From: a virus
IMG/VR virus record: IMGVR_UViG_3300037852_000017
Location: 1-30,972 of that record
Length of the DNA stretch: 30,972 nucleotides
Strand: one strand, 5' to 3'
In this document: positions 1,800-12,225 of the stretch, in pieces
Numbering within the stretch: position 1 is the stretch's first letter
Layout of the letters: each line of letters starts with the position of its first letter
The notes under the pieces: generated by a model
What the model was told of the DNA's origin: nothing
Databases searched by the model: none
What the model saw: the letters and a program-made list of their open reading frames with translations, nothing else
Translations under genes and position numbers: made by a program

Positions 1800-2194
1800 T
1801 GAATTACCTTCAATACTGGCCAGTTGCTGTTGTACTATTGGGAGTCGTAGCCTATGTATTCTGGCCTAAAAGTACTCCTGCTGCGACTCCTGCTCCTCAA
1901 CCTCAAAAGCCGTGTCCAGTTCCTACTCCTAAAGATACTTTTGAACAAGAAGTTGCAAAGCTTCCTAAAGAAGTAAAACCAGAAGTAAAGCCAGATTCAA
2001 GTGTTGTAGTTCTAGATAAACCTGAAGTAATGGATGTTAAGGTAGATCTTCCTGTGGATAAAACCCAGGTTGCTAGTACTTTATCTCATGAAGCTGATCT
2101 ACATAAAAAGGCTGCTATCCAAAAACAAGTTGAAGTAGATAATCATAAAATGGTTGCTGATCATTTAACCAAGGCAGTAAAAGAACTAAACTAA
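1799..2194 (+). CDS. Membrane-anchored small protein, unknown function
   Basis: A 131-residue protein with one N-terminal transmembrane segment (residues about 6-23, WPVAVVLLGVVAYVFW), then a Pro/Ala linker and a Lys/Glu/Val-rich, mostly polar tail that would be helical. The single segment with a long tail suggests an inner-membrane protein with the tail on one side. It lies between the small and large terminase genes, joined by TAATG overlaps on both sides. No homology is recognised. Holin or spanin roles were considered, but the shape fits neither well. Confidence 0.6.
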   Translation: MNYLQYWPVAVVLLGVVAYVFWPKSTPAATPAPQPQKPCPVPTPKDTFEQEVAKLPKEVKPEVKPDSSVVVLDKPEVMDVKVDLPVDKTQVASTLSHEADLHKKAAIQKQVEVDNHKMVADHLTKAVKELN

Positions 2195-3702
2195 TGCTTA
2201 CCGCAGGCGTCGTCGAGGGCTTCTGCGGATCATTGCTTGCCCCGGGCTTTGACCAAGCCACAAAAAGCCCGGATTTCCACAAAGAAATGTGGCAAATGTA
2301 TTGTAGTTCGTTTCCTAGAGTCGCTGTTGCAGCTCCTAGAGGACACGCTAAAAGTACGGCTGGAACTGTTGCTTATGGCCTTGCTTGCCTTCTTTTTAGA
2401 GAGTCTAGGTTTCTCGTTATAGTTTCAGATACTGAAGCTCAGGCCGTAATGTTCCTAAAAGCTATGGTTCAAGAGCTTCAGAACAACGAACAATTAATAA
2501 AGGTCTTTGGTGTAGTACCTCAGTTCCTAAAAGACACTGAATCTGACATTATCATAGCCTTTGAGGATGGACATACCATCCGAGTAATGGCTAAAGGTGC
2601 AGAACAGAAGCTTCGGGGTCTAAATTGGAACGGAACCAGACCTGACCTAATTATTGTAGACGACTTGGAGAATGACGAATTAGTAATGAACAAAGATCGC
2701 CGGGAGAAGTTGATGCGCTGGTTTTTTGGCGCATTGATGCCTGCGCTATCCCCCAATGGGAAGATAAGAGTACATGGTACTGTAGTACATCAAGACTCTC
2801 TTCTAAACTCCCTAATGCCTCAGGACTCATCCAGGATCCGAAAGGAACAGGATCTAAAGACCTGGGATGACTGGCCTGACGGAAGACCTAGAGGATGGTT
2901 GTCAGTAAAATATAAAGCTCATAATAAGGATTTAACCAAGTTTCTATGGCCGGAGAGGTTTGGAAAGGATTATTTCCAGGATAAAAGAGCAGATTATTTA
3001 TCGAGAGGTTTAAGTGATTTATACTCACAAGAATACCTTAACGAGCCTATCGATGAATCAGTTGCCTACTTCAAAAAGAGTGACTTCCTTACAATTAGGG
3101 AAGAAGACTGGAAAACAAGAAAAAGACGATACCTGGCTTTTGATCCTGCCGTTTCGGAATCAGAACGGGCCGATTTCAGCGTATTTGTGCTCGCGGGAGT
3201 TGACGAGGACCGGGTACTTCATATCGAGAATGTTGTAAGGGAAAGACTAGATGGTAAAGATATAGTTGACTATATTCTTGCTATGCACCGTCATTATGAC
3301 CTAGACGCTGTGGGTGTACCTAAGGATCTTATAACGAAGACTTTAGGACCTTTCCTTAGAGAGGAGATGATACGATCAAACTCCTTCCCAACCATCGTAG
3401 AACTGCCTACAACAGGCAAAAACAAAGTCCAGTGTGCTAGATCCATCCAAGCTAGAATGCGTGCTAAAACGGTCAAATTCGCTAAGGAAGCTGACTGGTA
3501 TCCACAGCTAGAAGATGAAATGACTAAGTTTCCAAGAGGTACTAAAGATGACGTAGTTGATGCTATGTCCTATATGGGAATGTTACTAGACAAGATTGTT
3601 GAAGCACCTACTGAACAGGAAGCCGAGGACGAAGAACAGGATGAATTACGACGCGAATACCGCAGCCAGTTCTCCGGAAGATCCCACATCTCCGGCTACT
3701 GA
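2194..3702 (+). CDS. terL: Terminase large subunit
   Basis: The ATPase/nuclease motor that packages DNA through the portal. The ATPase half has Walker A-like APRGHAKST (residues 47-55), Walker B LIIVDD (152-157) and a coupling-type motif near HGTVVHQDS (194-202). The RNase H-like nuclease half has FDPAVSESERADFS (316-329, metal-binding Asp317) and KDDVVDAMSY (451-460, Asp456). At 502 residues it is of normal length. It starts by TAATG overlap with the preceding gene and its end overlaps the portal gene by 62 bases. The first 90 bases are clearly more GC-rich than the surroundings and contain a strong hairpin (2242-2272). The gp17-type, P22/T4-like fold is well supported; the packaging mechanism (cos, pac or repeats) cannot be read here. 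Confidence 0.93.
   Translation: MLTAGVVEGFCGSLLAPGFDQATKSPDFHKEMWQMYCSSFPRVAVAAPRGHAKSTAGTVAYGLACLLFRESRFLVIVSDTEAQAVMFLKAMVQELQNNEQLIKVFGVVPQFLKDTESDIIIAFEDGHTIRVMAKGAEQKLRGLNWNGTRPDLIIVDDLENDELVMNKDRREKLMRWFFGALMPALSPNGKIRVHGTVVHQDSLLNSLMPQDSSRIRKEQDLKTWDDWPDGRPRGWLSVKYKAHNKDLTKFLWPERFGKDYFQDKRADYLSRGLSDLYSQEYLNEPIDESVAYFKKSDFLTIREEDWKTRKRRYLAFDPAVSESERADFSVFVLAGVDEDRVLHIENVVRERLDGKDIVDYILAMHRHYDLDAVGVPKDLITKTLGPFLREEMIRSNSFPTIVELPTTGKNKVQCARSIQARMRAKTVKFAKEADWYPQLEDEMTKFPRGTKDDVVDAMSYMGMLLDKIVEAPTEQEAEDEEQDELRREYRSQFSGRSHISGY
2242..2272 (+). repeat. Strong hairpin in the 5' end of terL
   Basis: CCGGGCTTT (2242-2250) and AAAGCCCGG (2264-2272) form a perfect 9-bp stem around a 13-base loop. 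No T run follows, so it is not a standard terminator. The same two 9-mers, in the opposite order, form the stem of the terminator at 25865-25889. It could affect terL translation or be a DNA site for packaging. Confidence 0.55.
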
Positions 3703-5776
3703 GAAGCAAGAACTAGCTGATATTAATATAGCTAAAGCCATCATGCGTAAGTATGATGGTGAGGATTGTCTTAAAAAGATTGGTAGAGACTGTAAGGCAG
3801 GGTTTGATGCTGATAATAAAAGTAGAACAGACTGGATCTCAGACATCGAAGAGTGGGTCAAGATTGCCAAACAGTATCGGGAAACCAAATCTTGGCCCTG
3901 GGACCAAGCATCAAACATTAAATATCCTCTTATTTCTACTGCTGCTATGCAGTTTAGCGCCAGAGCTTATCCTTCTCTTGTACCTGCTGATGGTAATATT
4001 GTTAGGACCAGGGTCATAGGAGAAGACCCAGACGGATCTAAATCAGACAAAGCTACTAGAGCTTCAAAGTATATGTCCTGGCAGTTAATGTACCAAATGC
4101 CAAGATGGGAAGAGGATATGGATAGGCTTCTCATGATGGTTTCTGTCATGGGAATGATGTTTAAGAAGACCTTCTATTCTAAAGAGGAAGAAAGAGCTGT
4201 AAGTTGTCTTGTTTACCCAGAGAACTTTGTAGTTGATTATTGGGCAGAATCATTGGAAGAAGCTGAGCGTTATTCTGAGATTATCTACATCTCAAAAAGA
4301 CGTTTAAAGAATAAGCAAAATGCGGGTATTTATTTGGATTGTAATTTAGGTGAACCTACTACTCCAAAGAAGGAACTGGATGCTGGGATGCCAGCTTATC
4401 CTACGAATGATTCCGTAACCCCGTATCGTCTTATTTCCCAGGCATGTTGGCTTGACCTGAACGATGACGGTTTAGACGAGCCATATACCGTGGTGTTCCA
4501 TTATGATACTGCGCGTGTTCTTGGGATTTATCCTCGATTTAATCAGAAGAATGTTAAACTTGATGATAAAGGTAATATCTGTCATATTAAAGCTGATTGT
4601 TATTACACTAAGTTTGGTTTCATTCCTAATCCTGATGGTTCTTTTTATGATATCGGTTTTGGCCACCTACTTGGTCCTTTAAATGATTCAGTCAACACCC
4701 TCGTCAATCAACTTGTTGATGCTGGAACGCTTGCTAACCTTCAGGCAGGATTTATCGGAAAGGGGTTACGACTGCGACTTGGAGATACTCCTCTCCAACC
4801 AGGAGAGTGGAGAGCAGTTAACGCTGTCGGGGACGATCTCAGGAAACAAATTGTCCCCCTACCAATTAAAGATCCAAGTAAAACTCTCTTCGATCTCCTC
4901 CAGTTCTTGATTACAGCAGGTAAAGAACTAGCCTCAGTAGCTGAGATCTTTGTAGGTAAAATGCCCGGACAAAATACTCCAGCCACTACGACTATGGCTA
5001 GTATTGACCAGGGAATGAAGGTCTTTACTTCTATTTATAAACGGGTTTACAGAGCTCTTGAACACGAATTTAAGAAGCTTTTTGATATCAATTCGTGTTA
5101 TCTTGACTATGATACGTATGTAGAACTTCTCGGGGACCAAAAGGTTAACCCAGGTGATTTCGATAATAAGCTTTTTGATATTATTCCTGCTGCTGACCCA
5201 GCTTCAGCATCAAGTACCGAGAAACTCCAGAAAGCACAGGCTCTCTTAGAACTAATGCAGTTGGGTACCCTTGATCCTGCTGAGGTTACAATGAGAATCC
5301 TCCAGGCTCAGGAACAACCAGATTGGCAGAAACTGATCCCAGGTTTGGCCCAGACAGGCAAACCACAAATCCAACCTAAGGTAGATCCTAAGGTTCAAGC
5401 TATCCAAGAAAAGGCTAAGGCAGAGGCTGCTCAAAGTCAACAAGAGCAACAACAAGACCAACAAAGATTCCAGTTAGAACAACAAGGTCAACAAGCTGAT
5501 CTTGCAGCTAAACAACAAGAGAATCAGATGAATCTTCAGGGTAAACAAGCAGAACTACAATTGAAAGCTGTTGAAGGACAGCAGACTCTTCAAGCAAAAA
5601 TGGCATCCAATGCCGTAGATCAACAACATCAACAGACGATGAATCAGCAAGCCCAACAACATGGACATGCTACTAATAAGGTCAAAGAGGAGGCACTACG
5701 GACAAAGGCGACTTCGCAGACTGGAAACAGCACCCAATCACAAAAGCATTCTTCAAACTCATCCAAGAAGAAATAG
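3641..5776 (+). CDS. Portal protein
   Basis: Forms the dodecameric ring at the capsid vertex through which DNA enters and leaves. The long acidic and aromatic N-terminal half contains SWPWDQASNIKYPLIS, typical of large podovirus portals; a helical stem region follows (residues about 390-520), then a long Gln-rich coiled-coil barrel (about 570-680) and a basic Ser/Lys tail. The ATG at 3641 is chosen over one at 3596 because the longer form adds a basic stretch that lies entirely in terL. It overlaps terL by 62 bases. The last 79 bases overlap the small gene at 5698-5904. At 711 residues it is in the range of P22-like portals. Confidence 0.9.
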   Translation: MNYDANTAASSPEDPTSPATEKQELADINIAKAIMRKYDGEDCLKKIGRDCKAGFDADNKSRTDWISDIEEWVKIAKQYRETKSWPWDQASNIKYPLISTAAMQFSARAYPSLVPADGNIVRTRVIGEDPDGSKSDKATRASKYMSWQLMYQMPRWEEDMDRLLMMVSVMGMMFKKTFYSKEEERAVSCLVYPENFVVDYWAESLEEAERYSEIIYISKRRLKNKQNAGIYLDCNLGEPTTPKKELDAGMPAYPTNDSVTPYRLISQACWLDLNDDGLDEPYTVVFHYDTARVLGIYPRFNQKNVKLDDKGNICHIKADCYYTKFGFIPNPDGSFYDIGFGHLLGPLNDSVNTLVNQLVDAGTLANLQAGFIGKGLRLRLGDTPLQPGEWRAVNAVGDDLRKQIVPLPIKDPSKTLFDLLQFLITAGKELASVAEIFVGKMPGQNTPATTTMASIDQGMKVFTSIYKRVYRALEHEFKKLFDINSCYLDYDTYVELLGDQKVNPGDFDNKLFDIIPAADPASASSTEKLQKAQALLELMQLGTLDPAEVTMRILQAQEQPDWQKLIPGLAQTGKPQIQPKVDPKVQAIQEKAKAEAAQSQQEQQQDQQRFQLEQQGQQADLAAKQQENQMNLQGKQAELQLKAVEGQQTLQAKMASNAVDQQHQQTMNQQAQQHGHATNKVKEEALRTKATSQTGNSTQSQKHSSNSSKKK

Positions 5777-5904
5777 AGGATGGAAGAGACGAATTAGAGA
5801 ACCACGCTAAGTTTCCACAAGATCAGAATCTATATCGTATAGCAACAATTGGTGGTAAAGTAGCCGCCTACAGAGCAGTATTTAACATGGAGATTGTTGA
5901 ATGA
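5698..5904 (+). CDS. Small protein between portal and co-chaperonin, apparent ACG start
   Basis: An unbroken 68-codon frame (GDFADWKQHPITKAFF near the start, IGGKVAAYRAVF near the end) continues 124 bases past the portal stop and ends by ATGA overlap with the next start. It fills what would otherwise be the only sizeable gap here. The frame opens after a TAA at about 5677 and holds no ATG, GTG, TTG or CTG before the well-formed protein. It does hold ACG at 5698, with AGGAGG (5688-5693) 4 bases upstream. It may use ACG, arise by -1 frameshifting from the portal gene, or carry a T-to-C change from ATG. It resembles small proteins found beside phage portals (unverified). The function is unknown. 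Confidence 0.6.
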   Translation, partial: TDKGDFADWKQHPITKAFFKLIQEEIEDGRDELENHAKFPQDQNLYRIATIGGKVAAYRAVFNMEIVE

Positions 5905-6215
5905 TTGAACCGATTGGTTATAGGGTTTTACTTACATTTGAAAGTGTAGCAGATCTAGATCCAGATTTTAAACGTGCCAAGAAGGCTGGAATTGTCCTAG
6001 CTGAAGACCATGAAGATATGCAACGGCGCAATGCTGGTGTAGACAAGGGTACTGTAGTAGCTCTTGGACCTTCTTGTGATTTTGGTACAAAGGTTAGAGT
6101 TGGTGATCGAGTTGGTTTTGCTAAACACTCTGGTAAACTCATCGAAGATGAGATTACTAAAGACAAATATGTTATGGTTAATGATGAAGATGTTCTTTAC
6201 GTGCAGAGGTCATAA
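5901..6215 (+). CDS. GroES-like co-chaperonin
   Basis: A 104-residue protein matching the Cpn10/GroES beta-barrel pattern: IGYRVLLTFE at the start, a mobile-loop-like segment (residues about 24-46, rich in charged residues), GTVVALGP (50-57), VGDRVGFAKHSGK (67-79) and a final YVMVNDEDVLYV strand. Such proteins cap the host GroEL; T4 gp31 does this to fold the capsid protein. Its place between portal and scaffold, upstream of the major capsid gene, suggests the same role here. It has GGAG 8 bases before the ATG and ATGA overlap with the upstream small gene. No GroEL partner is seen, so it would rely on the host's. Confidence 0.8.
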   Translation: MIEPIGYRVLLTFESVADLDPDFKRAKKAGIVLAEDHEDMQRRNAGVDKGTVVALGPSCDFGTKVRVGDRVGFAKHSGKLIEDEITKDKYVMVNDEDVLYVQRS

Positions 6216-8027: not shown

Positions 8028-8942
8028 ATGGCAATGCCGATCACTACTGGCTCGTTTGCTAAGGCTCTTTGGCCCGGTGTAGAAGCCTGGTATGGTAAAG
8101 AGTATAACGAGTATCCAGTTGAATTTATTCATCTGTTCGAAGAGCGTAGTTCACATAAAAACTTCGAAGAAATTATTGGTATTACTTCATTTGGTCTAGC
8201 CCAAGTTAAACCCGAGGGTGGAACCATTGCTTACGATACTGAGCGTCAAGGTTTCTTGACACGTGCTACACACGTTGTATTTGGTCTTGGATTCATTATC
8301 ACTCGTGAAATGTATGAAGATGACCAGTATGATGTAGTTGGAGAACGTAAGTCAAAGGGTCTTGCCTTCTCAATGCGTCAAACCCAAGAAGTCAACGGTG
8401 CCAACGTATATAACCGTGCTTTCAATTCAGCCTTTGCTTATGGTGATGGACAGCAAGCTATTTCAGCAGCCCACCCAAATGTGGCTGGTGGAACATGGTC
8501 AAATGCACTTTCAGTTAACTCAGACCTTTCTGAAGCTAGCCTTGAACAAGCTTGTAACCAGATTGCTTTATTTACTAACGATCGTGGTCTGATTATTGCT
8601 GCTATTCCTGAGTCCCTTATTATTCCTTGGGCTCTGGAGTTTGAAGCTGTTCGTATTCTAAAGTCAGCTGGACGTGTTGGTACAGACTTTAATGACCTAA
8701 ATGCTCTTAAAGAACTAGGGAAGTTCCGTAAGGGTCTGGTCATTAACCACTTCTTGACTGATCTAGATGCATGGTATATTCGGACTAATGTTCCAGATGG
8801 TATGCTCTACTTTAATCGTAGAGCAGCCGAGTTTGGCACTGAGAACGACTTTGATACTGAAAATGCGAAGTTTAAGGCAACTCAGCGTTATTCATTCACT
8901 GTTGGAGATCCTCGCGCCATCTTTGGTTCACCGGGCGCATAA
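8028..8942 (+). CDS. Major capsid protein
   Basis: The 304-residue shell protein, probably HK97 fold. It has an N-terminal arm (WPGVEAWYGKEYNEYPVEF), an E-loop-like region with FGLAQVKPEGGTIAYD (about residues 55-70), and a C-terminal A-domain-like part ending with YSFTVGDPRAIFGSPGA. The sequence has the look of phage T-like or Mu gpT-like major head subunits. AGGAGC lies 7 bases before the ATG. Its place after portal, scaffold and decoration genes, with a hairpin just after the stop, fits the highly expressed capsid gene. There is no sign of a frameshifted longer form. Confidence 0.88.
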   Translation: MAMPITTGSFAKALWPGVEAWYGKEYNEYPVEFIHLFEERSSHKNFEEIIGITSFGLAQVKPEGGTIAYDTERQGFLTRATHVVFGLGFIITREMYEDDQYDVVGERKSKGLAFSMRQTQEVNGANVYNRAFNSAFAYGDGQQAISAAHPNVAGGTWSNALSVNSDLSEASLEQACNQIALFTNDRGLIIAAIPESLIIPWALEFEAVRILKSAGRVGTDFNDLNALKELGKFRKGLVINHFLTDLDAWYIRTNVPDGMLYFNRRAAEFGTENDFDTENAKFKATQRYSFTVGDPRAIFGSPGA

Positions 8943-10953: not shown

Positions 10954-12041
10954 TGCTCAAGGGATCTACATATGTAAATGTAGTTTCTATTGATCTTAAA
11001 CAACAAATGGGAGCCAAGGGAGATGGAGTTTCGGACGATAGTGCCTCTTTAGTTGCAGCAATTAATCAAGTTAATACAAACTACACAAACAAGATTTCCA
11101 GTATTATTACAGTTCCTCCGGGGTCATATTTAATTAAAAGTAATGCTATCCCCGCTTTTAGTCCTGGTGTACCCGGAGCTATATATGGGGCAGGTCCTCA
11201 CAGAACCTACTTTCAACTAGATTCTAGTTATGTTGGAGATCTCTTCTCCTGGTCAGAGTCCTGGATAAGTACAGCTTATGTATCTGGGATGACTGGAGCA
11301 CAGGACAAAGCCGGACCTCAAGCAAAAGGATTTACAGTACTTGGTAATACTAGTGCTGGAAGTCAACAAAATGTTTTTAGATTCTATGATAGAAATGACC
11401 ATGTATTAATGGAGGATGTTGAAGCCTACTTCATTAATGGACAGTTTCTTTCTTGTGGTAGAACATTAAATCAATCTATTGGGTTTATGAGGGAAAGTCA
11501 CTTTAGAAATCTAAAAGCATTTAATTGTGGTACAGTAAGTCAACCTGTTATAGAACTTTCCTCTACTACAACCGTAAGTTCCGACGCTACTAATGAACTT
11601 CAATTCCATGGTCTTAATCTCTTCGGAGCAAAAGGAAAGGGAATTGTTATTAACAACCCCAATTCTTTTAATTCTACCCGACTTATTAAGATGTTTGGGG
11701 TTAGGATAGAAGCTGGTGGAGATGATGGGATTAGTATCGGACTTGTTACTGATACTGGTCAAACCTCTAATATAGGTATTCATGGCTGGGAATTGTCCAG
11801 TGGATTAATTAATACCTACGGTTTAGCAGTAAATACTAATGGTAGTTTTGTTCCCTATGGTATATATGTGAATGATGGTGTTATCAATACTCTAGGAAGC
11901 GGTATTAATCTTCAAAGATGTAATGGATTGCAGATTATTTTAAGTTCTATGAATGTCGGACAAAACACAGTAACCACTACTGCCAATGCCCTGAACTATA
12001 TTGTAAGTGGACCCAATACAACCTATTCACACAATCCATAG
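10953..12041 (+). CDS. Tailspike/tail fibre with pectate-lyase-like beta-helix
   Basis: A 362-residue protein whose N-terminal part carries the typical start of a phage right-handed beta-helix, GAKGDGVSDDSASLVAAIN (about residues 21-39), followed by ITVPPGSYLIKS and many short Asn/Gly/Val-rich coils. In phages this fold binds or cuts host surface polysaccharide. It has no obvious long N-terminal virion-binding domain, unlike the second spike downstream. No chaperone or enzyme residues can be picked with certainty. It is coupled upstream by TAATG. Confidence 0.75.
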   Translation: MLKGSTYVNVVSIDLKQQMGAKGDGVSDDSASLVAAINQVNTNYTNKISSIITVPPGSYLIKSNAIPAFSPGVPGAIYGAGPHRTYFQLDSSYVGDLFSWSESWISTAYVSGMTGAQDKAGPQAKGFTVLGNTSAGSQQNVFRFYDRNDHVLMEDVEAYFINGQFLSCGRTLNQSIGFMRESHFRNLKAFNCGTVSQPVIELSSTTTVSSDATNELQFHGLNLFGAKGKGIVINNPNSFNSTRLIKMFGVRIEAGGDDGISIGLVTDTGQTSNIGIHGWELSSGLINTYGLAVNTNGSFVPYGIYVNDGVINTLGSGINLQRCNGLQIILSSMNVGQNTVTTTANALNYIVSGPNTTYSHNP

Positions 12042-12048
12042 AGAGATT

Positions 12049-12225
12049 ATGTCTAATACTGGAAATACTATTAAGCACACATTAGATTTAACTGCTGCCT
12101 TTGTGGCAGTAGCACCTTGGTTTGATCTTATGCCAAAGATCGCAGCTACTATGGCTGTTCTTTGGTATATGGTTAGATTTTATGAATGGGTTAAAGAGAA
12201 GCTAAATGCCAAATCCGGAAGGTAG
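12049..12225 (+). CDS. Small membrane protein, possible holin
   Basis: A 58-residue protein with a hydrophobic central stretch (residues about 15-43, AAFVAVAPWFDLMPKIAATM then AVLWYMVRFY) and a basic tail (EKLNAKSGR). This could make one long or two short membrane segments, as in small phage holins. The ATG at 12049 is chosen over the in-frame ATG at 12007, which lies inside the tailspike. AGAGAG precedes it. The distance from the endolysin and the presence of a better holin at 25635 make the lytic role uncertain. Confidence 0.5.
   Translation: MSNTGNTIKHTLDLTAAFVAVAPWFDLMPKIAATMAVLWYMVRFYEWVKEKLNAKSGR

Follow-up and report, generated by a model that had tools for sequence, protein, structure and literature searches.

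The window, by which we mean the whole stretch of 30,972 nucleotides analysed here, is virus record IMGVR_UViG_3300037852_000017. It carries a head module in which a small open frame lies between the genes for a portal protein and a GroES-like co-chaperonin. The features of this region are as follows:

2194-3702: terminase large subunit gene (PHROG 38, E 2.9e-77)
3596-5776, plus strand: portal protein gene (PHROG 1216 portal, E 5.1e-22)
5677-5679, plus strand: in-frame TAA, the upstream end of the small frame (from the sequence)
5688-5693, plus strand: Shine-Dalgarno AGGAGG, 4 nt ahead of the ACG (from the sequence)
5698-5700, plus strand: ACG, proposed near-cognate start codon
5698-5776, plus strand: overlap of the portal 3′ end (frame 0) with the small gene (frame -1), from the computed frame relation
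5698-5904, plus strand: small gene, 68 codons from the ACG plus TGA, with homologs in 234/240 loci
5901-6215, plus strand: GroES-like co-chaperonin gene (Pfam Cpn10, E 4.9e-08; PHROG 3188, E 7.8e-11)
8028-8942: major head protein gene (PHROG 371, E 4.3e-10)

The portal frame has start candidates at TTG 3596/3599 and ATG 3641 and ends with TAG at 5774-5776; its start is uncertain, and at 3596-3702 it shares about 100 nt with the terminase gene. The small frame is open from 5680 to 5904. As the original prediction had noted, it extends past the portal stop for 124 nt (5777-5900), fills the gap up to the GroES gene and ends with its TGA overlapping the GroES ATG as ATGA (5901-5904). The largest gap among the listed genes (256-25395) lies at 12042-12205 and is covered by a GTG-started frame of 72 codons (12007-12225). 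A tRNA search of the window found none, so this fragment carries no phage initiator tRNA.

From the TAA onward the codons of the small frame read GGT CAA AGA GGA GGC ACT ACG GAC AAA GGC GAC TTC GCA GAC TGG. Reading these codons confirmed that ATG, GTG, TTG and CTG are all absent ahead of the conserved body, and from the upstream stop to the Trp codon no codon other than the ACG differs from ATG by a single base. It follows AGGAGG after the spacer CACT, again as predicted, and the duplex of this Shine-Dalgarno sequence with the anti-Shine-Dalgarno has an energy of -12.0 kcal/mol. The spacing of 4 nt is short; at 7 nt the frame has GAC, which is not near-cognate, and an overlapping GAGG (5687-5690) sits 7 nt before the ACG.

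The original prediction had proposed searching for homologs of the small gene and comparing their start codons. When the window protein was searched by tblastn against candidate stretches, two loci (L002 and L003) matched with E 1e-8 and the same gene order; in both, the small gene starts at an ATG overlapping the portal stop, and the window ACG aligns with their Met1. Scans by the small protein and by the portal, together with the GenBank sequence of Alcaligenes phage QDWS535, gave 240 loci including the window, with several per contig. A profile was seeded with ten small-gene sequences, the window among them (so that its E of 3.6e-18 is self-inclusive), and it picked up the small gene at 234 of the 240 loci. 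After removal of duplicates, defined as sequences identical over the stretch running from 75 nt upstream of the conserved Trp codon to the stop, 157 distinct genes were left. There was no small-gene match in six loci (L110, L136, L152, L173, L182 and L208), and in all of these except L173 the portal match stops no more than about 60 nt short of the locus end. Of the distinct small genes, 155/157 are followed by a GroES frame whose end is 150-700 nt further on, and among the 151 with a portal match, 144 have the portal stop no further than 100 nt from the conserved Trp. These comparisons establish that the gene is conserved, bearing out the suggestion that the frame is real. A GroES-based scan for further loci found none. 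In L005 an extra small open frame (2357-2512) lies between the portal and the small gene.

An AlphaFold model of the small protein (mean pLDDT 91.8) predicts three helices, at residues 3-11, 13-37 and 42-62. Searches of Pfam and PHROG assigned the window protein to 0 families, and scattered single-member family matches were seen at E 2e-4 to 7e-3. Against annotated phages, tblastn with the window frame returned two chance-level matches only (E 5-6). A PDB fold search with the predicted structure gave no match at E <= 0.001, and in a viral structure library the best matches were uncharacterised Caudovirales proteins (best E 1.6e-3). Among the relatives found, only phage QDWS535, an isolate with Alcaligenes faecalis 10106 as host, is annotated; it has its copy (L023, OK172329.1, 3325-3531) between a portal gene that ends at 3346 and a GroES gene that begins at 3531, with no CDS annotated there, in line with the expectation that gene finders would skip this gene. 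Its start candidate is an ATC 6 nt from AAGGAG (AAAGGAG in the sequence). No paper on phage QDWS535 was among the literature matches listed.

The distinct small genes fall into 92 with an ATG, GTG or TTG (hereafter NTG) before the conserved body and 65 without, counts that are not population frequencies because portals of the overlapping group served as queries. The two classes track the position of the portal stop. Where it lies beyond the conserved Trp codon, with the small gene in frame -1, all 57 members are without NTG, the window included; these are the overlap members referred to below. Where it lies before the Trp codon in the same frame, 64/69 have an NTG. Members in frame 0 without overlap comprise 11 with and 2 without, those in frame +1 without overlap comprise 8 and 1, the three that overlap in frame +1 all have an NTG, and six further NTG rows lack a portal match. 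Of the 57 small proteins of the overlap members, 56 show pairwise similarity below 0.9.

A prediction fixed beforehand was applied to a further set, in which 92 new loci gave 91 matches and, after removal of 66 duplicates, 25 distinct homologs. All 14 overlaps in frame -1 were without NTG and all 11 others had one, including one that overlaps in frame +1; this set was held out and is not fully independent, some rows being near earlier ones (L320 to L093, L324 to L092). With both sets pooled, 71/71 overlapping members lack an NTG, establishing that its absence is tied to the overlap. A tree of 147 portal rows built with FastTree requires a minimum of seven changes of start class, and well-supported branches force six of these; in it the window groups together with L092 and L142, neither of which has an NTG. 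The rows are therefore related, and with only seven start-class changes in the tree the p values and simulations given below overstate independence.

The overlapping members share a second feature, a near-cognate codon at Shine-Dalgarno distance. At the start position the 57 carry ATT in 33 cases, ATC in 23, ATA in 0 and ACG in one, the window. In the 56 with ATT or ATC this codon lies 4-7 nt after the Shine-Dalgarno sequence; the 4-nt spacing of the window is shared by seven of them. Considering all members without NTG, an AUH codon (ATC, ATT or ATA in the DNA) lies 4-8 nt after the best Shine-Dalgarno match in 62/65, and in 54 of the 63 rows that have a codon in that register it is in frame at 6 or 7 nt. 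The other three are the window (ACG at 4 nt), L016 (CTG at 7 nt) and L017 (CTG, no Shine-Dalgarno found). Among the 14 further overlapping homologs, 13 have ATC or ATT 6-7 nt after the Shine-Dalgarno sequence; L254 was missed by the automatic rule, and by eye an ATT follows GGGAG there. By the automatic rule, 69/71 overlapping members of both sets have AUU or AUC at the start position.

Controls placed this frequency well above background. At distinct Shine-Dalgarno-like sites in the same portals, an AUH in the -1 frame followed at 4-8 nt in 14/349 cases (match >=5) or 48/1226 (match >=4), and at neighbouring codons of the small frame AUH occurred in 0-9 of 56. Members with an NTG had an AUH at 6-7 nt in 10/83, and the GroES genes of the same 57 loci had an NTG before their conserved body in 57/57 by a loose rule. 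When codons were resampled with each portal's residues downstream of the Shine-Dalgarno sequence fixed, drawing from the same portal tails with the site itself left out and counting AUH 4-8 nt after the Shine-Dalgarno sequence, the mean was 10.0/57 and the maximum over 2000 runs was 21, against 56 observed, a comparison that is descriptive because the rows are related. The AUH spans two portal codons, and since the second specifies Leu in 33 members and Ser in 23, the residue at this point of the portal varies; the portal codons AAA/TTA/TCR found at the site are partly true by construction, the sites having been chosen as AUH. These results establish AUH at Shine-Dalgarno distance as a property of the overlapping members. 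The base after the start codon is A in 33/33 members with ATT, and A (9) or G (14) in those with ATC, which could reflect either the portal codons or initiation context.

With the two genes overlapping in frame -1, frameshifting was a possibility that called for a test. The original prediction had named a -1 shift from the portal gene as the main alternative; aided by the internal AGGAGG, it would yield a portal-small fusion with no need for a start codon. Such Shine-Dalgarno-stimulated ribosomal slipping is known from dnaX, the 57 overlap members are, as the group is defined, all in frame -1 and the three other overlaps, in frame +1, have an NTG. In the window the candidate slip site is ACA AAG (5702-5707), about 11 nt after the Shine-Dalgarno sequence. 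A scan of the zero frame for slippery heptamers of the X XXY YYZ type, however, found one in only 1/57 overlaps (L180) and none in the window. In eight members (L094, L102, L139, L170, L185, L189, L194 and L218) a stop in the small frame lies between the Shine-Dalgarno sequence and the AUH, so that their frame opens at the AUH and any shift would have to occur downstream of the stop. The distance from Shine-Dalgarno to AUH is 7 nt in 46/57, which suits initiation, while that from AUH to Trp ranges from 7 to 14 codons, and the AUH is kept far beyond what the portal residues explain. In the 64 members of frame -1 with an NTG, moreover, the portal stop precedes the Trp codon and the gene has its own start, the plain reading of which is a separate protein, and in L122 and L146 the portal stop lies ahead of any start candidate although an NTG is still lacking. 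Frameshifting is thus disfavoured and we consider it very improbable, if somewhat less so for the window taken by itself, and initiation at near-cognate codons within the small-gene family is, judging from these comparisons, highly likely.

A reason for the missing NTG is suggested by the portal protein. Its tail is rich in Lys, Gln and Ser, and the last 60 codons encode no Cys or Trp, with 0 counted among 3420 residues in the 57 overlapping portals and 0 among 3840 in 64 non-overlapping ones. Wherever an NTG stands in frame -1, the portal frame reads TGN and so receives Cys, Trp or a stop. From the start codons in use the portal receives Ser (ATC), Leu or Phe (ATT) or Arg (ACG), and ATA would place TAN, Tyr or a stop, in it. 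It is likely, then, that NTG is avoided since TGN would enter the portal tail. With NTG barred in this way, the lineage would have kept the overlap, dispensed with an NTG and come to have a strong Shine-Dalgarno sequence. Mean pairing energy with the anti-Shine-Dalgarno is -8.37 kcal/mol in the overlap group vs -7.00 in the NTG group (p 5e-8), as expected if the Shine-Dalgarno sequence compensates for the start codon, in a comparison biased by the choice of overlap-group starts by their Shine-Dalgarno distance.

The ACG itself occurs at the start position in the window and in none of the other members examined, and it is known from one metagenomic contig whose best portal match is 62%. Two explanations would apply to the window alone. 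The ACG could be a sequencing or assembly error for ATG, as a single contig and the ATG at the aligned place in L002 might suggest; an ATG here would, however, give the portal tail a Trp (TGG), a residue seen in 0/3420 tail positions, and none of the 71 overlapping members has an NTG, so that an error is improbable. Alternatively, the window copy may have lost its start and no longer be expressed, since no other member has ACG and the window is without a close relative for a selection test. Against such a loss, the frame is intact over 68 codons and carries the family-invariant W and T, the ATGA overlap with GroES is retained and the Shine-Dalgarno sequence is strong, making a dead copy distinctly improbable. 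The ACG is probably the start codon in this particular phage.

Taken together, the data are best explained by near-cognate initiation behind a strong Shine-Dalgarno sequence, the mechanism originally proposed for the window and now supported by the AUH pattern of its relatives. The small gene would begin within the portal gene, in frame -1, and be made as a separate protein, through initiation led by the Shine-Dalgarno sequence at ACG in the window phage and at AUU or AUC in the overlapping relatives. fMet would initiate at these codons, presumably with low yield. We give this explanation as a whole a probability of roughly three in four.

In four members an NTG is missing even without portal overlap at the start: L122 (start candidates ATA or ATC), L146 (ATT or ATC), L005 (ATT, which may instead reflect an indel) and L100 (ATC). 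In the portal tree L122 and L146 lie in a seven-row branch with L103 (ATC) and the ATG members L107, L112, L117 and L145. These members indicate that constraint from the overlap explains the missing NTG only in part; for them, inertia and a positive use of the codon are both possible. One such use would be control, in that an IF3-sensitive, low-yield AUH or ACG start could hold a head-module protein far below portal and GroES, or time its production. This would predict members such as these four, and we regard it as a tentative and rather doubtful addition.

Noncanonical starts characterised in bacteria are very few according to PMC5472188, which describes infC (IF3) with an ATT start in E. 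coli and ATC in Streptomyces, and Streptomyces sigR with a GTC start repressed by IF3. The small gene resembles infC, as described there, in a non-NTG start common to distant relatives; infC is cellular and autoregulated by its own product, whereas the small gene is an unrelated phage gene inside an overlap. Judged by the features of infC, the window and 64 other of the 157 distinct genes have no ATG, GTG or TTG before the body, and a near-cognate codon at Shine-Dalgarno distance is kept in relatives as AUH (62/65), the ACG itself not being shared. With sigR the likeness is a noncanonical start, which in that gene, on the same account, sets the ratio to a neighbouring gene's product; unlike the small gene, sigR starts with GTC and is a regulator gene.

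In the S. aureus work (PMC13009471), an extended Shine-Dalgarno sequence precedes the start of cvfC1 (AUU), ccpN and infC (both AUA), and AUU/AUA starts give about 10% of the AUG yield in poor medium. A strong Shine-Dalgarno sequence before an AUH is thus common to both systems, although the S. aureus cases, as presented there, are single chromosomal genes and here a divergent phage family is concerned. N-terminomics of E. coli (PMC13245402) lists one upstream ATC site and two ATT sites in ribE.

Among the 64 frame -1 members with an NTG, 32 are arranged at the portal stop as overlapping ATGA or GTGA pairs. The window differs from such an ATGA-coupled portal pair in that its portal stop (5774-5776) lies downstream of the small-gene start (5698). 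A survey of 64 codons is reportedly due to Hecht et al., as cited by others. Within open-licence papers, no such phage gene family was among the literature matches listed, which leaves its absence from print unproven.

Going beyond the original view of a single odd gene, sequence comparison indicates that the missing canonical start is a trait of many relatives, mostly with AUU or AUC, the ACG being seen in the window only. Gene finders restricted to ATG, GTG and TTG would miss this conserved gene. A divergent phage gene family with dozens of AUU and AUC members, kept inside an overlapping gene, would provide a ready-made natural series in which to test to what extent a strong Shine-Dalgarno sequence can stand in for AUG, and also how gene overlap shapes start codons.
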